Notes under the pieces: generated by a model
What the model was told of the DNA's origin: nothing
The model's input: only the letters and a program-made list of their open reading frames with translations
Databases searched by the model: none
Shown: positions 4,773 through 13,896 of the stretch, piece by piece
Position numbering within the stretch: the stretch's first letter is position 1
Layout of the letters: each line of letters opens with the position of its first letter
Program-made: the position numbers and the translations under genes
Assembly (NCBI GenBank): GCA_000697055.1
Contig: JNDT01001937.1
Span: 248,001-312,000 of the forward strand
Direction of reading: 5' to 3'
Source of the DNA: Saksenaea vasiformis B4078
Taxonomy: Eukaryota > Mucoromycota > Mucoromycetes > Mucorales > Saksenaeaceae
Length of the DNA: 64,000 bases

Positions 4773-6098
4773 TTATTGCTTTGGTGGTTTTCCTTGAAGA
4801 GAGTGATGGATATCGATTTCTGGTAATCGGGACATGGCAGCCTGACGTGCTTCTTGTTGCAAAGCAAGACTAGTCGAAAACTAGTTAAAAAAACTATAGA
4901 AAAATAGAACTTTGTACTTACTCCATAATAACCAATGATGCCATCGCTTCCACAATTGGCACAGCTCTTGGTACTACTGAGGGATCATGGCGTCCTCTTG
5001 CTGCCAAAGTTCCCCATACACCGTCGTACGAAGTGGTCTGTTGATCGCGAGAGATGGTTGCTGCAGGTTTGAATGCAACGCGGAAGTAAATGTTTTCACC
5101 GTTAGAAATGCCACCCTGAACACCTCCAGAGTTATTTGTAACCGTGCCGAATGTACCATCCGGTTTCTTGACAAAAGCGTCATTGTGCTTATGTCCCGAC
5201 ATCTTTGTTCCATTGAATCCAGATCCAAATTCGAAACCTTTGGTGGCGGGGATGGACAACATGGCATGAGCGAGCAATGCTTCAAGCTTATCAAAGCATG
5301 GTTCACCCAGACCAACTGGGCAATTTCGAATCACACAGGTAACAGTTCCACCTACTGAATCCTTTTCTTCCGACTTGGTAGTGATTACATTTTTAATTTC
5401 TTCAGCGGTCTCTGGATGAGGACATCTGGTGATATCTGCGTCGACTTTTTCTCGGCTGATGTTATCCAGGAACTCGTAGAACTCCGGCTTTACATTTTCA
5501 GTCTCCTCAAGATCGCGAATGAAAGGCATGGCAGCTTTACCCACACTTGACGTGAATGCGACAATTTCAACACCATAGGCCTGCTTAAGGTATTTCTCGG
5601 CAATGGCACCACCTGCAACGCGACCGATTGTTTCTCGTGCAGATGCTCTTCCTCCACCGGACGACGCTTTCAGTCCATACTTCTGCAAATAGGTGTAATC
5701 GGCATGACTCGGTCGAGGATAAACGTCTGTCTCGCTGTAATCGTGTGGACGCTGATCGAGATTTGGCACCTGCAGACCGATCGGCGTGCCCAAGGTCACA
5801 CCAAACTCTGTACCTGACATGATGGTGACTTTGTCTTTTTCGTCGCGCTAGTATTCAAAAATTAGCATGAGTTACAATAAGCTTAGTGCAATATTTTTTA
5901 TCGCCTTTAGTTTAATCAGAAATAACGTACAGGTGTTGTGAGTTTGCTTTGGCCAGGTCGTCGTCTGGACAGTTGTGGTTGAATGTCAGCTTCCGTCAGT
6001 GCCATTCCCGGGGGAACTCCGTCCACAATGGCACCAACGCCTTTGCAATGGGATTCGCCGAAGGTTGTAACACGATAAAGTTTGCCGAAGGTACTCAT
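4773..6098 (-). CDS. ARO2: Chorismate synthase
   Basis: Last enzyme of the shikimate pathway, converting 5-enolpyruvylshikimate-3-phosphate to chorismate with reduced FMN. The start ATG at 6098-6096 opens [18 protein letters not shown], the standard N-terminus with the GESHC motif. [12 protein letters not shown] closes exon 1 near 5933. Exon 2 resumes at about 5850 with RDEKDKV and contains [11 protein letters not shown], then [22 protein letters not shown], the FMN-site region. The apparent stop at 4920 is better read as a GTAAGT donor. Splicing to an acceptor near 4885 gives a tail [17 protein letters not shown] and a stop at 4775-4773. An upstream ATG in the same frame (near 6170) would add a hydrophobic stretch not usual for the family, so I prefer 6098. 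There is no sign of the bacterial-type or pentafunctional AROM fusion. A transposon boundary lies 110 bp upstream. Confidence 0.92.
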
Positions 6099-6198
6099 TC
6101 CGTTCACTGAAGAGAAGGTAGAAGACTCGGAAAAGAAAAAAAGGGAAAAAAAGGTGATCAAAATGGTCAACAGTCACATGCACGGCCGTTACATGGTG

Positions 6199-6205
6199 TG
6201 ACTCA
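6199..6205. promoter_or_regulatory. Gcn4/CPC1-type box TGACTCA upstream of ARO2
   Basis: A perfect TGACTCA lies about 100 bp upstream of the chorismate synthase ATG. This is the consensus for Gcn4-family bZIP activators, which in fungi control amino-acid biosynthesis including aromatic genes. That the box is used here is inferred from position and pathway. Its last six bases fall in the 9-bp target duplication of the adjoining transposon, so the element landed directly on the site. Confidence 0.5.
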
Positions 6206-6208
6206 TCC
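6200..6208 (+). repeat. Target-site duplication, left copy (GACTCATCC)
   Basis: Identical to 12345-12353 and directly abuts the terminal inverted repeat at 6209. Confidence 0.75.
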
Positions 6209-6241
6209 GGGTTTCGCTACACGCACCCCAGCGGCGCACCC
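6209..6241 (+). repeat. Terminal inverted repeat, left
   Basis: 33 bp beginning GGGTTTCGCTAC, matching 29 of 33 bases of the reverse complement of 12312-12344. Mismatches are at TIR positions 7, 13, 23 and 24. After a short length difference both ends continue with AAATGACGT. Confidence 0.75.
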
Positions 6242-6247
6242 CACAAA

Positions 6248-6255
6248 TGACGTCA
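6248..6255. promoter_or_regulatory. Palindromic CRE site TGACGTCA inside the left TIR
   Basis: A perfect ATF/CREB-type bZIP consensus lies just inside the transposon end and about 150 bp upstream of the ARO2 ATG. The right end has only the half-matching TGACGTAG. Function is untested: it could serve the element or influence ARO2. Confidence 0.4.
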
Positions 6256-6303
6256 GTACAACCAGCCAGCCAATCATTTTAATTTTCTCTCCTTCCGGAC
6301 GCC

Positions 6304-6489
6304 GTGGCGTTCCGGTTCCATCCGGAAACAGCAAAACCCGGGCCCGACGGATGGGCTGGATGGCAGGTCCCTAACTGCCGTACCATTAGAAATGGTTGGG
6401 AAGTCCCAGCTAGGTTTACACCCACATCCGAAATTTGGCTGAACCAATATGTGAGCTTCAAGGAGTCCCACATTGTTCAGTGGATCTAA
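6304..6489 (+). CDS. Short ORF in left subterminal region of the transposon
   Basis: 61 codons, GC-rich compared with its surroundings, containing HPETAKPGPDGWAGWQVP and several Trp residues. I recognise no domain. It lies 95 bp inside the left TIR and could be a coding exon or structured subterminal DNA. Nearby GGACGCC/GGCGTTCC palindromes favour the latter. Treat as hypothetical. Confidence 0.25.
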   Translation: MAFRFHPETAKPGPDGWAGWQVPNCRTIRNGWEVPARFTPTSEIWLNQYVSFKESHIVQWI

Positions 6490-6574
6490 TGGAAGAAAAG
6501 TCAGACTTTTGTTGAAAAACAAAAAAAAGGAGGAAGAAAGGAGGATACTTACGAAGAGATACCGGCTGGAACTG

Positions 6575-6637
6575 AACGGCTTGCAGAGACCCAACGAACT
6601 TGGGTCACAACTTGATTGGACGCCCCTGCAAGCCGTT
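6575..6637. repeat. Nested hairpin, 11-bp perfect inverted repeat
   Basis: AACGGCTTGCA at 6575-6585 is exactly reverse-complemented at 6627-6637. The loop contains a second small hairpin, ACCCAA/TTGGGT, at 6589-6605. It is a subterminal feature of the transposon, possibly a transposase-binding or recombination structure. Confidence 0.5.
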
Positions 6638-6869
6638 ATGATGTACTAAAATAAGAGCTGTGGTTAACTGCTTCTTCATATAAAATCGTACGTTCCTTTC
6701 AATTTTTTGGTGTTACATGATTTCTGTGTAATGATCGCTGCATAGATAAATAACCTTGGGTCACTTGAAAAGAAGAAGTACGTAATCTTGCGCCACGTGG
6801 AGGAGAGTAAATACTCTACTTTTTGAAGTTAGTTTTAATGATTATGGATGGCATCCGGGTCACAAATAC

Positions 6870-8330
6870 CTTGTCAAATTAGCATTGTGCTTTTTGGGAT
6901 GTTACCGCCACGTGCGTCTTTTCATGGATGCCTTTGAATGCACTGTATCAGAGAACAGAGTAAGTGAATATTGCGCACCCACTGATAAATACATTTGCTT
7001 GTAGATGATGAAGGAAAGGACGAAAGGAAAAATTGCCAGGGACCGGAATAAGGAAAGATTCTTTGAAGACATCACCACCCTGATCTGTCCATACTGCAGG
7101 AATAGAATTGGAAGTGTTCAGACATTTGTGACCAAGCGTCGACGTTTCGTTAACATGATCTACAGGTAAGTGTGCAATCCTCATCGAGAGTGTAGTGTTT
7201 GTACTTTTTCGTAAGAAGCATCGATTCGAAAGAAAAAAGAACAACGTACAAAATATAAAAACTGCGATCTGTGTCGCTGGTACCATTAAATACGAATATG
7301 ATATGTATAGGCTTCCCATGTCCTAAGTGCTGCCAAAAAGGTATGACCGTTTAGGCTTGAACAACGTTGAAAAATATAGAGATATATGACTGTGCTTCCG
7401 ACCTGTTGATCGGTCCCTTTTCTTACTTTCTTTCCTGCTTATTTCAGAGATGTCCACATTATATCACAAGACAACCAAAAAGGGCCGAAAAAGGGAACGA
7501 CGCAGAGAGCATTTAGAAGGGCAACTTCCTGATGAGTGTGTGATAATAGCCTACGGAGATGCAGATATCAAAGCTGGCTACAAAGGCCATGCACCCGTGC
7601 CTGTAAAAGTCGGTTTAACCGTCTTCCATAAACAAATACGATTAAATGGGAATGTAAACAATAGAAGTTCCGAAAGTATGTGGCCAGGGAGGCCCTTGTC
7701 ATCCTAGTGGATGAATTTAAGACGAGCAAAGTCTGCTCTTCTTGCGACTTGGTCACGAACCAGCACCGCGAAGAAACGACTTGCTGTCCGCACAGGTATA
7801 CATTCTTTATATTATACATTTGGTTATTCATAACGTCTTACAGAACCAAATTGAAGAGATTGCAAGGAGATCGTTGGCGACGATACTGTCTGCAACGAAA
7901 TAACGACGCAATTGTTCACCGGACGTCGCTGTGCCCAGAAAGGCGACCCATCCGTAAGTATTGCTGCTTATTGTACTTGAATATGAAACTCTCGCTCTTA
8001 TAGCTCTGAGCGACTATCGGAGCGAGGAATATCCTCTGAAAAATTGTAGCAACCATGTTCAACTTCTGGTGAGTTTATGATAACCAAGCGATTGTTGCTG
8101 ACATCTACATCGTTTCAGGTGTGGAATCATGACGTTAATGCCAGCTGTAACATGTGACGAATACCAACTTCATATATGGAAACTGACGGGGATGAGGCTT
8201 CAAGATCTGCAGCTATCCGGCGTCCCAACAATCGCTGATGATTATAATAACGACAAAAATAGCGTAAGCACGAGCAGGATCATAGTGTATTTCATGATGG
8301 TAATAAAGAATAGCGAGAAATAAAGATAAT
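6870..8330 (+). pseudogene. Fanzor/TnpB-like nuclease, C-terminal half (RuvC-II, Zn ribbon, RuvC-III), decayed
   Basis: Eukaryotic homologue of the RNA-guided nuclease TnpB. Exons on the + strand give, in order: a helical stretch FLGCYRHVRLFMDAF (about 6890-6935), GDADIKAGYKGHAPVPVK (near 7560-7605), VDEFKTSKVCSSC (near 7710-7748, first CxxC of the zinc ribbon), LKNCSNHVQLL (near 8034-8067), then after an intron WNHDVNASCNM (near 8122-8154), the RuvC-III aspartate motif usually seen as WNRDVNA. The frame changes between the GHAPVPVK and DEFKTS blocks (7607-7680). TGA immediately follows the RuvC-III block, where family members usually continue. Several GT-AG introns with good signals remain, for example 7797-7844 and about 8070-8118. 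The N-terminal half is absent here, but a matching half lies on the opposite strand just downstream. Family assignment is by motif memory, not by search. Confidence 0.68.
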
Positions 8331-8506
8331 GGAAGTCAGCAGAGCGAATCAGCAAAACGTGAAGGCTTCTATTCTAGCGGTGTCGTGCTAGTCTGGTTGC
8401 AAGCGTTGATAATGTACTTTCTCTTGCTGAGTGAAGCATTCGGCGCGTCACTCGATGTCTGAACGTGGTATTGAAGCCATGTAATCTTTTGAATCGGAAA
8501 ATAAGT
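8331..8506. other. Junction between the two Fanzor-like halves
   Basis: This 176-bp stretch separates the 3' end of the + strand half from the broken end of the - strand half. I see no ORF, TIR or obvious duplication here. If the 3' half was inverted in place, one breakpoint lies in or next to this stretch. Confidence 0.4.
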
Positions 8507-10773
8507 CAGAACGTAGCTTGGACTTTCGCTATTATATACCTGTCGTGTATCACACTTAAAGTTCCAATGTATAATAGGAATTCTCTTACTGATGCTACCG
8601 TCGGTGGCGCATTACCCAAAGCTTCGTATATTCGTTCCATATTCGCTTTATTTCTGACGTTTAGTTCACGCTGTTGTGCCCAATGAAACATCGAGCGAGA
8701 TCTGCCGAAGTTTTGGATAAAAAGCACAACAGTGTTTCACTTAACTGATAGTGGGAGTTCGTGATCGACAAGGGATTGTGATCGCGATCATTGGTACTCA
8801 CTGCTGTGATTAAAGATCTGATGCCTACATGGTGCATCTTCAGCGTTTTATCTGGAGTTGTCGACAGCGTACCTGGATCTACTCCTACGACTGTTGTTCG
8901 TTGAAGCCGCTCGGCTGTCAGCCCGGAAGGGTCTTTTCGCAGGTGATACATTCCTCGAACTTGATTACTGAGATCCATTTCTCGTGGCAAGCGATTAAAC
9001 TCTCGCCGCGACGAAGGATATCTCTCTGCGTGATATTAACTTACTGGTAAAGTCAGGTTTGAACTTACCCTGCCTGCGCTGATCAAACTGTACAGAAACA
9101 GATGCACCATCTGCCTGCAGATAATAAGCAAACTACATTAACCTATTCGGCTGACGCTCTATAAGATACCAAACGCATGCACATTAATACTATAATAATA
9201 TCGTTGTTTGCCTACCGTTTTGCCATCTCCATCTGTTCCTTTTTACGTAGTCGAGGTTGTAACAGCTCTTCCCAAATCTGTTCTTTATATACAGAGTCCC
9301 TGCAATTTCGTTCATATATGTACTGTGATATCAATGTCTGATTATCCTGCTTAAGTAACAAATTAGTCTTGCCCGTTTATATTTTTTTTCTCTTACCATT
9401 AAGCGTTCAGGAACAGGCCAGTGCTTCTCATAGGCATTTCGCAAGATATAATAGAGCACACGGTTTGGTATCCGATCTGGTGGTTGGCGATGGGAAGTAG
9501 TGACCAGCGCTTTCCGTTGTACTGCACGGAGAACGGGTGTAACTTGTAAATGTACCGCAACACTTTCGGCACCCAGATATCTTGGGAGATATCCTCCTCA
9601 ATATCATCCGGAACAATATTGCCCATGTTCTCTTGGTAGAGTTGCCGTTGATTACTGTTGAAAAGAAGAGAAAGAAGATGAGATACTTTTCCATATGTAC
9701 CTGGAAAGTAAAAGTGCTTTCCACTCAACATACTTGTAAAAAGTTACTGTCATACGACGCTCGGGTAACTCCGGCCAGTCATTTTGTGTGAGCTGGCGCC
9801 CGGAAACAATCCATCTTATGGCTTGATCCGCTAAATTGTGCACCAATTTAAAAAAATGAGTGATCGTTACTTCAAGTCGGTTAAAAACGACAACGTACCC
9901 AGACTCACGACGCCCGCAGGGAGTCTGCCACCGTTTCTCAACTTCAATCCAGCAAAGAACGCCTTCCATACATATCGCATGTATGTGACAACGTTGCGCA
10001 TCAAATGTTGCACGACATCTAATGAAGGAAATTGACAACACTTTCACCATCACTATTCTGACTTGTAACTTAATTGTCACGACAGCTGTATGGAATAGAT
10101 CCCGTTCTATACTTAGGACGCGAGAATCGCCCGAAAGTGCATACAGAGCTAGTATAAGGATACATTAACGACAGAAACATCAGTACTCAACTGCCATTTG
10201 TGCGTACCTTCGCCCGTGAAAGGGTTCCTTCGGAACGTCCTATACAGCTCGTCTTTCCATTCCTGTATGTATGAAGTAAATACGGGTTAATAAGATCCCG
10301 TAGGAAAGAGTGATGCTACTTTGTGCAAACGAACGCGGATTCCTCCTCTCTTGAATGATATGGTAGGAAAAACATACCGTATCCGTTTGTTCCATAAGGA
10401 ACTCATGATTTGCGGTTAACGTAAATGCGAATGTCCAAAACTCCCTCTGCAGAATAACGAGGAGATCCTGGTCAGATGCGTCGCGCTCTAGGAGCACTCG
10501 GACGTGTAAATTAGCTGGGTTTACTGTGTCCCTTCTTCTTATGTGATATTGCTCTGTAATCATTCGAATATCATTCTACCCTAAAAGTTTAAAAGGGGGG
10601 CATTTCCATGATAGCAAAACGCGTACCTGAAGATATTTGAACGGTTCAAGCAAGAAGTGCCGCAGGTTCCCTTTAACGGTTACGCGGTGTTTCGGGTCGT
10701 TGGTCCGAGGGATGATATCCTGTCGGTACCTTGTTCTCTGACGTTGGGTTGGTTGTTCGTGAACTTCTTGCAT
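8507..10773 (-). pseudogene. Fanzor/TnpB-like nuclease, N-terminal half including RuvC-I
   Basis: Minus-strand exons from an ATG at 10773 give TVKGNLRHFLLEPF, RMITEQYHIRRRD, an FSVQYNGKRWSLLP block (near 9545-9490), a helical exon at 9336-9210, then LQADGASVSVQFDQRRQ (about 9120-9070). TERLQRTTVVGVDPG follows and, after a 48-nt intron (about 8876-8829), IRSLITAV: together the RuvC-I motif with its catalytic Asp in GVDPG. The ALGNAPPTVASVREFLLYIG block at 8610-8560 is typical of the family. The reading frame across 8690-8760 could not be joined cleanly and a stop ends it at 8507. RuvC-II, the zinc ribbon and RuvC-III are missing from this strand and are found inverted at 6.87-8.33 kb. This looks like one gene whose 3' half was inverted, or two truncated copies. 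Not expected to be active as it stands. Confidence 0.65.
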
Positions 10774-10794
10774 GCGTGATAAAGGGAAATGCTT

Positions 10795-10857
10795 AAGTGA
10801 CTGTACGAGCGGAAAAGAAAAAGGGAAACGGTGAAGTGATTGTACGAGTGAAAAAGA
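10795..10857. repeat. 39-bp imperfect tandem duplication
   Basis: AAGTGACTGTACGAGCGGAA at 10795 is repeated as AAGTGATTGTACGAGTGAAA at 10834, both followed by purine-rich DNA. It lies just upstream of the N-terminal Fanzor-like half, in its possible promoter. The rest of 10858-11180 shows no feature. Confidence 0.45.
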
Positions 10858-11179
10858 AATTATTTCATGGATGAGATGAATAACCTCACACAGGAAATGT
10901 TTCAGATAACGAGATGTGATGGGTGTAAGTGGAAGACTGATCTCCTTCTTTGTCTTCGACAGTCCTCAACAATGTATCCGGATTACCTGTGAAATTATGG
11001 AATACAATCTGCTGTATCAGGCTTCGATTATGGTATTTAAGTGAATTAGTCAAAGGGAAACAGATAAGATCCTTCGAAAACGTTTGGTGCCTTTATTTCA
11101 TTGAGTTTGTCTGCCTATTTATATTTGTTGTCTTTTGAGGATTTAATTTTAAGTGAATGTTCTTCTCAGTGATAGGTAT

Positions 11180-11372
11180 TCATGATAGTAAGTACAGTGA
11201 TCGCTCGATATAACGATATTCGATATAGCGATATTCCTGATATTACGATATTTTTTCTTTGGAACAGAATCGGTAGGCTATAAATATTGCATGTCTGCTT
11301 AAACGATATTGTCGATATAGTGATGAATTTACTTTCCACCGAGGGTATCGTTATATCGAGCGACCAGGTCAG
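11180..11372. mobile_element. Pogo/Tigger-like TIR element remnant (MITE-size)
   Basis: About 190 bp flanked by TCGCTCGATATAACGAT (near 11200) and its inverse ATCGTTATATCGAGCGA (near 11346-11362), with internal CGATAT repeats. The left end follows TA and begins CAGTGATCG, the pattern of pogo/Tigger termini. The right end lacks a matching CACTG, so that end is decayed or displaced. No coding capacity. It interrupts the 3' end of the transposase relic on the minus strand. Confidence 0.55.
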
Positions 11373-12140
11373 AATCCCGCGTTGCAAGAAGCTTTTCCAG
11401 CTTTTTCAGAATTATATCGAGTTTACTAACTAAATGCCTATTCAATGGTGATTCTGAGATAACTAAGTCTTCAAACATTTCACATAAGCTCCTTTTTATA
11501 TCAGTCAGGATAGCAGACGGATTTCTGTCAATGTAATCTGCAAAAAGCTGGGAATGAGTTCCGGTCAGCTTATCATAACAACTAGTACGAGGCTTCCTCT
11601 GAATACCGTTAGACATCCTTCTTCATCCCGGTTGTACGTTTTGATATAACGTTGAGTGGTTGGAATATCTATACCTGTAATAAGTGGCGCTTCCTTTGCT
11701 GTTCTAACTTCTTTCTCACGAGATACACATGGCCTACTTCGAAGGCGGACAAAGTCTGTTAACCTTTCATATTCAGTATCACCAGCAAATAATGAGGCGT
11801 CTGCCAATGTACACATCCGCATAAAGCTATCGTTTACGTGACTACCTCTTTCCCATCATCTTTCAGTCAAAACGGCTGGATTTGAACGAGAAAATTCCAC
11901 CCACCCATTTTGCGTATCGTCCTCAGACATATCAACATCCAATTAGGTGATATCATCCACATTCAGTGGAGTGCCTTCAGCCCCCATGTGGTCACGTAAG
12001 TCGTTCATATCGAAGCAAGTAAAATATGAGTTTGCACAAAAACAACGCAAAACTCTGGTTACTGGCACAAAATTCATTTCCCATTCTGTTGTAGAAGGTA
12101 TCTGACACTTTTTTTGCAAGCAATTTTTCTTAGGGACCAT
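11329..12140 (-). pseudogene. DDE-type transposase relic, N-terminal helix-turn-helix part
   Basis: Minus-strand pieces in shifting frames run from a short ATG-initiated stretch at 12140 through MSEDDTQNGWVEF (about 11930) and ITGIDIPTTQRYIKTYNRDE (about 11670) to FADYIDRNPSAILTDIKRSL and ISESPLNRHL. This resembles the two-HTH N-terminus of Tc1/IS630-like (DDE_3) transposases abundant in Mucorales. It has an in-frame stop near 11945, a frameshift near 11600 and no catalytic domain. It ends at the Tigger-like remnant, whose TIR supplies the last codons of the open frame. The DDE_3 relic at 23.2 kb is the complementary catalytic part of a similar family. Confidence 0.5.
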
Positions 12141-12311
12141 ACCACTCCCGACTCTGGAAAGAAAATATATTATTTACCACGCCTCGTTCGTGATCTTCCG
12201 TTCTTCACTGACGCTGCTGCCATACACAGTACGTACATAAATCACAGATACGCGCTCCTTGTTAGATAAGCTACATCACTTAAGCCTTAAACTACGTCAT
12301 TTTTGGGGTGT

Positions 12312-12344
12312 GGGTGCGCCAGTGGGGTGCGCGTAGCCAAACCC
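12312..12344 (-). repeat. Terminal inverted repeat, right
   Basis: Reverse-complement partner of 6209-6241, ending GTAGCCAAACCC on the + strand. The AAATGACGT tail follows after a 7-bp longer C/A-rich stretch than in the left end. Confidence 0.75.
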
Positions 12345-12353
12345 GACTCATCC
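12345..12353 (+). repeat. Target-site duplication, right copy (GACTCATCC)
   Basis: Direct repeat of 6200-6208, immediately after the terminal AAACCC of the element. Here it is preceded by C instead of T, so the full TGACTCA box exists only on the left, ARO2-proximal side. Confidence 0.75.
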
Positions 12354-12728
12354 TGAATGGCTGATGGCCGTGCGATAAGCCACGTTTCGTGTTACGAGCG
12401 AGTTCGGGCTTTTGATCGACATTCTCAAATAACTCGGGAGAAATTGGACGATAATCCGTTGATGAACGCCGACACTCAGTGCCTGTACCATGTCTTCGTC
12501 ATCTATAATAATCTGAAGACTGCAACTATTTACTACATTAACATAATTCACCATTCCTAATGCCGTATCATGGGGTTACTCCACTATTTTGTGAACCTTG
12601 CTACTCGGAACATCCCGCCTTCTTGGGACGTTCAACTTTCGAGACGTTTCACCGTTTTACAACGGTCCGATGTCGAGCACCCATGGCCTCGAAGAATCAC
12701 TGTCCACTTGTTGTATCGCTGAGGATTA
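12354..12728 (+). other. Former ARO2 upstream DNA with an unrecognised open frame
   Basis: Lies between the Fanzor-bearing element and the Tc1 element. A + strand frame at 12357-12560 and another from 12560 that is cut by the Tc1 left TIR show no recognisable domain. By the target-site reconstruction this DNA was once contiguous with the ARO2 promoter at 6199. Confidence 0.35.
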
Positions 12729-12759
12729 CACTCCAAAGTAGCAAGTCTGTGGACGGTAG
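12729..12759 (+). repeat. Tc1 element left TIR
   Basis: 31 bp, exact reverse complement of 14037-14067. Similarity continues more weakly inward (CTCCGCTA in both ends). Confidence 0.93.
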
Positions 12760-12838
12760 TGCAAACTCCGCTACTTTCAGTTCATACTTCAAAATCTTTT
12801 ACAGTTGTTTTCCTTCTTTTTCTTATAAAGTTATTTCT

Positions 12839-13896
12839 ATGCCATTTGGAGATATTTCCAATACTACTCGAAAGCATAACTGTGAATTTTCTGAGGCGGA
12901 GCGCGCGATGATTTTCGGAATGAAGGCAGCAGGAATGTCATATGGTGCTATCGCCAAGGCCAAAGGACTTGGAAAATCGAGTGTGCATCGTATTGTAAAG
13001 CACGTTAGTGAGTATGGCTCTCCGACTTCTAAACCAAGAGAAGGAAGACCCAAGAAGATTACGAAACGATCATGTCGAGCCATTGAACGCAGCATCCGCG
13101 ACAATCCGCGTACACCCCTGAAGGTTCATCACGCGACTTTCTCCGAAACATGCATGAAGGTTTCATTGAGCACATTCGCCAAAACTGTGCACGAACTTGG
13201 GTTCTCTTCACGCCGCCCTATTCGTAGACCTAGGTTAACAGAAAACCACAGAACCAGACGGCTAAAGTGGGCAGAGGAACGCGTGAACTGGACTCCTGAG
13301 AGATGGCAGAAGGTAATCTGGAGCGATGAGTCCAGATTCCGTGTCATTGGTAACGATGGTCGGGTACGTGTCTTGCGGAAGGATGGCGAAGGTCTTCTGG
13401 AACAGCACATCACCGAAACTACAAAGTTCGGCGGTGGCTCGGTAATGGTATGGGGCTGCTTCAATGCAGATGGGGTTGGCCCATTCAAGTGGTAGATGGC
13501 AGGATGGATGGGAAGGAGTACATCAAGGTTTTGCAGAGAAACTTGATACCATTTTTGAAGGAGAACAAGTTAGATGACCACATCTTTCAGGAAGACAATG
13601 CCCCATGTCATAAGAGCACGGCCGTGCAGCGATGGAAGAGCAAACATGGTGTCTCCTTCATGCAAGACTGGTCTGCACAAAGTCCAGATCTCAATCCTAT
13701 TGAGCATCTCTGGGACGAGCTGGAGCGCCGTCTGGTAAAGAGGAGACACCTGATTCACAAGCCAGAACAGTTGGAGGCAGTACTCATGGAAGAGTGGCAT
13801 GCCGTCCCTGCAAGCATCTGTGAAAGCCTGGTTGTTTCCATGCCAAAAAGGTGTCAAGCCGTGATTGAGGCGTGTGGGGGGCACACACCTTACTAA
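12839..13896 (+). pseudogene. Tc1-type transposase with one -1 frameshift
   Basis: Cut-and-paste transposase. The start ATG at 12839 gives MPFGDISNTTRKH, followed by an HTH (AERAMIFGMKAAGMSYGAIA), a GRPKKI linker and a second HTH. The catalytic residues are present: IWSDESRF, then FQEDNAPCHKS and NPIEHLWDELERR. By my count 35 residues separate the second Asp and the Glu, against 34 in classical Tc1. The frame shifts near 13485: reading ADGVGP in one frame and IQVVDGRMDG in the next implies one lost base in CCCATTCAAG. Everything else is open to TAA at 13894-13896. An isolated indel in otherwise intact coding DNA points to recent inactivation or a sequencing error. Confidence 0.88.

Follow-up and report, generated by a model that had tools for sequence, protein, structure and literature searches.

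A probable Mutator-type transposon of Saksenaea vasiformis with a Fanzor gene split over both strands

The stretch of DNA analyzed here (hereinafter the window; 64,000 nucleotides, C441:248001-312000 of the Saksenaea vasiformis B4078 assembly, which was searched over its 38.7 Mb and 666 contigs) contains an element with terminal inverted repeats (TIRs) and a target-site duplication (TSD), inside which the parts of a Fanzor-like nuclease gene lie on opposite strands. We denote the window element W and further genomic loci by L-numbers. In window coordinates, its features are:

6200-6208, no strand: left TSD, GACTCATCC (sequence and script)
6209-6241, plus strand: left TIR, 33 bp (repeat search; genome-wide TIR-pattern matches)
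6209-12344, no strand: the whole element W, 6136 bp (its ends and two near-complete copies, L009 and L010)
~7100-8370, plus strand: putative inverted block with the Fanzor C-terminal part (exon strands in W, L009 and L010 versus collinear relatives; lower block divergence of W/L009 versus L010)
7450-8157, plus strand: C-half of the Fanzor (by-eye gene model, relatives, Pfam PF07282; exon edges predicted)
7450-7608, ~7662-7795, ~7844-7953, ~8004-8070 and ~8119-8157, plus strand: predicted C-half exons J, K, K2, K3 and L
7713-7715, ~7735-7746 and 8131-8133, plus strand: RuvC-II E, first zinc-ribbon CxxC and RuvC-III D of the predicted C-half model
8155-8157, plus strand: stop codon TGA of the predicted C-half model
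8369-10773, minus strand: N-half of the Fanzor, predicted as ~12-13 exons with the start codon ATG at 10773 and the stop codon TAG at 8371-8369 (similarity between the L010 copy and the protein P0121)
8871-8891, minus strand: RuvC-I motif VVGVDPG (N-half reading)
11060-12081, no strand: pieces of another repeat family inside W, resembling dozens of other places in the genome (best 40 of 267 candidates scored)
11198-11218 and 11346-11366, no strand: 21-bp inverted-repeat pair within 11060-12081 (repeat search)
12312-12344, minus strand: right TIR, 33 bp (repeat search)
12345-12353, no strand: right TSD, GACTCATCC (sequence and script)

Directly to the right of W, a Tc1/mariner-type transposase (HTH_Tnp_Tc3_2 and DDE_3) occupies 12542-13896. 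Elsewhere in the window, a stretch of a chorismate synthase gene (4918-5847) shares 96% identity with a protein of Apophysomyces sp. BC1034 and 88% with the next best match, which places the host among the Mucorales close to Apophysomyces, and between 25000 and 30000 the GC skew is -0.35 at 25-26 kb and +0.34 and +0.29 at 28-30 kb.

The two TSD copies are identical as an exact 9-mer, and the repeat search recovered between them a 34-nt inverted repeat with 88% complementarity (6208-6241/12312-12345), which gives a TIR pairing of 29/33 once the outermost C-G pair is omitted. An earlier note, made from the letters of the window, had described a complete TIR element with base-exact boundaries, a 9-bp repeat and 33-bp TIRs pairing at 29 of 33 positions, and this description stands in full. 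A second pair of inverted arms follows (6237-6253/12294-12310). With up to three mismatches, the TIR core pattern occurs in the window at the ends of W only (mean expectation in shuffles 0.01), and genome-wide searches with GGGTTTSGCTACRYGCACCC (≤2 mismatches) recovered 81 matches as against 0 for the reversed control. A chance pairing of TIR and TSD is ruled out by the window shuffles, the reversed control in the genome and the TSDs of the further copies. Immediately inward of the TIR (6249-6275 in W), the majority of 16 aligned ends retain (T/C)GACGTCA and then a CCAATCA-like box, which may be a binding or promoter site.

Further copies with the same ends, which the earlier note had proposed to look for, do exist. 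Counting the window's own, the genome has 24 left-end-like and 30 right-end-like places; near-complete copies of W are found at L009 (contig C626; 94-95% whole-element similarity) and L010 (C462; 87-88%). Perfect duplications of 9-11 bp, likewise anticipated, flank seven of the 11 two-ended intervals (W, L009, L010, L016, L018, L020 and L021), that of L010 being almost entirely A; L019 has a duplication with one mismatch, and the flank comparison yielded none for L017, L036 and a 14.8-kb interval on C577 whose ends are TIR-like. Two loci whose right TIR was not found, L013 and L014, were left out of this comparison. L018, L019, L020 and L021 are ~1-kb copies with both ends and little between them, i.e., MITE-like derivatives of the TIR family.

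The length of these TSDs is Mutator-like (8-11 bp, in most cases 9 bp, for that type) and the TIRs are common to many copies, in keeping with the Mutator-like carrier that had been suggested for W. The earlier note had also seen no transposase of matching type; concordantly, none of the 62 genomic matches to the MULE domain (PF10551) falls inside an element with these TIRs, such that autonomous members of the family with a MULE-type DDE transposase were not found. Around the 81 TIR matches, the 15 kb to either side take in two MULE hits, each of them past the far end of a 1-kb copy. At the locus L035 (C531:65501-70500) and at C599:2383-3099, a MULE match lies ~0.3 kb from a zinc-ribbon match of another type of Fanzor on the opposite strand; L035:4009-4593 matches HTH_OrfB_IS605, and the 5 kb at L035 gave no long inverted repeat. 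The MULE and other-type Fanzor genes at these two places possibly belong to one element.

Fanzor1 elements of the MuDR superfamily have been described from Rhizopus oryzae (ROr-4), Phycomyces blakesleeanus (PBl-3) and Mucor circinelloides (MCi-4), with 9-bp TSDs and, in the available portions of that account, without a transposase (Bao and Jurka, 2013; PMC3627910). By their description they resemble W in their Mucoralean hosts, TIRs, 9-bp TSD, Fanzor1 cargo and lack of a MuDR transposase; the similarity of TIRs to confirmed MuDR elements has been published for other species. Because of the 9-bp TSD and this precedent, we regard W as probably Mutator-like by its TSD and non-autonomous; counting against the assignment are the want of a cognate transposase and the three of 11 two-ended intervals without a duplication. 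The carrier type is thus one already known since 2013. Unlike those elements, as far as the available portions of their description go, W has its Fanzor split over both strands by an inversion common to several copies, and the strand-split gene is what is new; our literature search, which reached its sources in part, returned no report of a naturally split Fanzor.

On the plus strand, the predicted exons J to L splice to a C-half of 167 residues, and the minus strand codes for an N-half of ~600 residues with the RuvC-I motif. The spliced C-half matches Pfam PF07282 (Cas12f1-like_TNB) with 27.6 bits (cut-off 26.3), a single exon stretch remaining under the cut-off with 23 bits. The motifs VVGVDPG, ILVDEFKTSK and WNHDVNAS contain what we take, by analogy and not from structure, to be the D-E-D residues of RuvC-I, -II and -III. 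The search with joined exons, proposed in the earlier note, hence places the cargo in the TnpB/Fanzor family and agrees with the RuvC-I, RuvC-II, zinc-ribbon and RuvC-III pieces read there. The claim of a Fanzor gene in the element holds as to family, but the gene is no longer whole: its parts are on different strands, and the frame of the N-half of W is broken in exons D/E and E2. For these two reasons W is also ill suited to studying how the nuclease benefits its element, the use the earlier note had foreseen for it. That note did not mention that the strands of the pieces differ. Genome-wide, PF07282 has at least 150 matches at E ≤1 (best 150 of 388 candidates scored).

NCBIfam gave only a chance-level match on the C-half, a search of the protein database found no stand-alone C-half (13 word-sharing candidates, none at E ≤0.001), and sequence searches of solved structures with three pieces and the relative P0121 matched no Fanzor. 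In a search for a guide RNA, Rfam had no match over 5800-12800, and the consensus structure at the left end was weak (15 pairs, five with a compensated change). An upstream exon I of the C-half (7005-7165) was rejected: together with an exon I0, its W-L010 substitutions fall 7/7/7 by codon position, leaving coding unsupported. In the portions of the sources available (PMC10711439; PMC10432273 gave no hits in a term search), Fanzor1 and TnpB RNA-guided nucleases share with W, when both of its strands are read, RuvC-I, RuvC-II, zinc ribbon, RuvC-III and the PF07282 match; unlike in those nucleases, the parts in W are on two strands.

Of the Fennellomyces proteins, P0121 (727 aa) covers 97% of the L010 N-half at 30% identity and P0122 (775 aa) covers 95% at 28%; a third hit, P0123, extends over 25% of it. 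In the gene model P0121, the N-half in its L010 reading corresponds to residues 33-619 and the C-half to residues 637-715 (76 residues at 44%), soon after which the protein ends, without RuvC-III. Pfam assigns P0121 to no family and gives a weak PF07282 match (14.3 bits) to P0122. Like W, both proteins have the Fanzor N-half, and P0121 part of the C-half as well; unlike W, each is a single continuous chain with no inversion. Because P0121 holds both halves in series, we take these to be complementary parts of one Fanzor chain, cut between RuvC-I and RuvC-II. At the border of the two halves, collinear relatives have a gap with stops, taken as an intron.

With RuvC-I of W read from the minus strand and the RuvC-II, zinc-ribbon and RuvC-III parts from the plus strand, a continuous single polypeptide was not found in W. 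We tallied strands across the genome using all 85 RuvC-I matches (84 loci, one gene having given two) and all 130 C-half matches, taking the nearest C-half within 2.5 kb: 62 of 65 loci with both parts have them on the same strand, and the three with opposite strands are exactly W, L009 and L010 (19 RuvC-I matches had no C-half match within that distance). Examples of a collinear gene are found in L017 and L028, with minus-strand exons, and in L016 and L015, with plus-strand exons. As the only strand exceptions are W and its two closest copies, a single inversion is common to the three and was multiplied by transposition. Its breakpoints would lie between ~7095 and ~7425 on the left and at ~8366-8385 on the right. 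Parts of the same arrangement recur in two further loci: L011 (C659) has the right junction, its C-half being on the strand opposite to that of exon H, and L029 (C303) has ~340 bp upstream of exon J in common, i.e., the left side. In a FastTree phylogeny of the C-half, W, L009, L010, L011 and L029 stand apart from ten other sequences (support 0.886). All five of these inverted-lineage copies have an ATG right after the splice acceptor of exon J, which is absent in L015 and L016, the collinear relatives where the codon could be aligned. Flip-flop through inverted repeats at the breakpoints was also considered and rejected, the best inverted match scoring 8, which was equalled in 48 of 60 shuffles. 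Among nine collinear elements with a Fanzor hit within 8 kb of a TIR match (from 84 of the 85 RuvC-I and 100 of the 130 C-half matches), six genes run toward a TIR, the C-half hit being separated from it by 0.5-3.0 kb, and three run away. If a guide RNA is read outward, one would expect the end of the gene to face that of the element; the inversion would turn this gene end inward.

We assessed selection on the halves by pairwise maximum-likelihood codon tests, from which codons with gaps or stops were removed (two stop codons in L011; stop-bearing N-half codons, counted on a nearly identical exon set: three for W-L009, one for W-L010 and four for L009-L010), and in which part of exon E2 was taken in the broken frame of W, adding noise against the signal. 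Compared with L011, the C-half gave omega values of 0.174 for W (p=7 × 10–14, 159 codons) and 0.164 for both L009 and L010; compared with L029, over exons J and K only (90-92 codons), it gave 0.083 for W (92 codons), 0.099 for L009, 0.083 for L010 and 0.199 for L011 (90 codons). For the N-half, omega was 0.235 for W-L010 (p=6 × 10–18, 524 codons), 0.310 for L009-L010 and 0.567 for W-L009 (p=0.033). Among the three full inverted copies themselves, the C-half values (W-L009 0.92, W-L010 0.68, L009-L010 1.29) are indistinguishable from 1. As controls, wrong frames had omega values of 1.6-3.2, and the values for two noncoding stretches were 1.08 and 1.25; exon H, too short to be decisive by itself, gave 0.31-0.39 (p=0.035 to 0.17). 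The separated halves therefore show strong coding constraint in the older comparisons (omega 0.08-0.31), and the C-half none in the recent ones. Each copy has something broken: in W the N-half, in L009 exon J along with a Q in place of the RuvC-II E, in L010 exon K, and in L011 stops; L029 is a fragment only. By eye, the L010 N-half is open in the predicted exon model and has its own stop.

The inverted block and its flanks differ in divergence: 6.3% versus 11.5% for L010-W (p=6 × 10–8) and 5.0% versus 11.6% for L010-L009 (p=7 × 10–13). Because the L010 block is far less diverged from W and L009 than are the flanks, an exchange of this block between elements is probable, and the L010 N-half may owe its constraint to a time when it was collinear. 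There are hints that L011 is mosaic too: relative to W, its exon H differs at 12 of 93 sites (12.9%) and its C-half exons at 137 of 498 (27.5%; p=0.003), the corresponding figures relative to L010 being 19/93 (20.4%) and 123/498 (24.7%; p=0.43).

Taken together, we judge it likely that W is a non-autonomous DNA transposon, presumably of the Mutator (MuDR) superfamily, whose Fanzor1 gene was split by an ancestral inversion, multiplied and is now decaying. In one ancestor of this Fanzor1-bearing element, ~1.3 kb with the C-terminal exons would have been inverted in place, giving the observed strand split. Split copies are present at three sites, each with its own TSD; a transposase supplied from elsewhere presumably moved them, none having been found inside the TIR family. 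In the collinear relatives, the Fanzor would, as published families suggest, be an RNA-guided nuclease that helps the element to be retained. In W, a full-length protein cannot be read from a single strand, and its gene is decaying. What counts against decay are the low omega values of the C-half (W-L011) and the N-half (W-L010, and to a lesser degree W-L009): simple decay since the inversion predicts no such constraint, unless the copies had diverged before they were inverted or had exchanged the block among themselves.

These values are what one would expect if two convergent genes, functional after the inversion, yielded an N-piece of ~600 aa with RuvC-I and a C-piece of ~165 aa with the RuvC-II, zinc-ribbon and RuvC-III parts, the two forming one nuclease, and if the present copies were decaying descendants of working ones. 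The constraint is seen in the pairs that share junctions (C-half of W-L011, W-L029 and L011-L029; N-half of W-L010) with all wrong-frame and noncoding controls above 1, L011 having the right junction and L029 the sequence upstream of exon J; the open N-half of L010 with its own stop and the exon J ATG confined to the inverted lineage point the same way. Against such a two-piece Fanzor, the C-half has no codon signal among W, L009 and L010, none of these three nor L011 has both halves open, L029 is fragmentary, and a stand-alone C-half was not found in the protein database; moreover, the probable exchange of the L010 block allows its N-half constraint to be of collinear age, and exon H of L011, closer to W than are the C-half exons, hints at a mosaic, though not so for L010. 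We consider this account rather unlikely, and unlikely also the specific course in which the inversion created two convergent genes whose products both remained under purifying selection thereafter, assembling in trans and being spread by the Mutator-like element. A mosaic ancestry of the copies is a simpler account than a two-piece Fanzor that once worked. Decay after a shared inversion thus remains the most likely reading, and split function a real minority one. Distinctly less probable is a composite of two convergent Fanzor genes, each having lost the complementary part. Collinear elements do occur with either orientation of the gene to the ends (L017/L028 versus L016), and the two halves do not clearly have a nearest relative in common: exon K of the C-half is nearest to L017/L028 (60%) and L033 (64%), exon F with RuvC-I has several relatives at 40-59% identity, and the N-half tree puts the inverted clade in a mixed group (support 0.585-0.838). 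The halves, however, break at adjoining positions of one chain and no part is doubled. Finally, in an assembly of 666 contigs with many repeats, the inversion might be a misjoin of the window contig, but this is very improbable, as the same split recurs in three contigs with different flanks and ~5-12% divergence, and L011 and L029 have one junction each.

If the constraint truly came after the inversion, nature would have divided a compact RNA-guided nuclease between RuvC-I and RuvC-II, and the element would indicate where such enzymes tolerate splitting. For the question of how the nuclease helps its element, L017, L028, L016 and L036 would be better material, having the same TIRs and a collinear gene (in L017 with stops). 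W adds another Fanzor-bearing Mutator-like family, in a Mucoralean genome very rich in Fanzor-like genes; what is unusual is the inversion, which shows a Fanzor element occupying several sites although its nuclease gene is in two parts.
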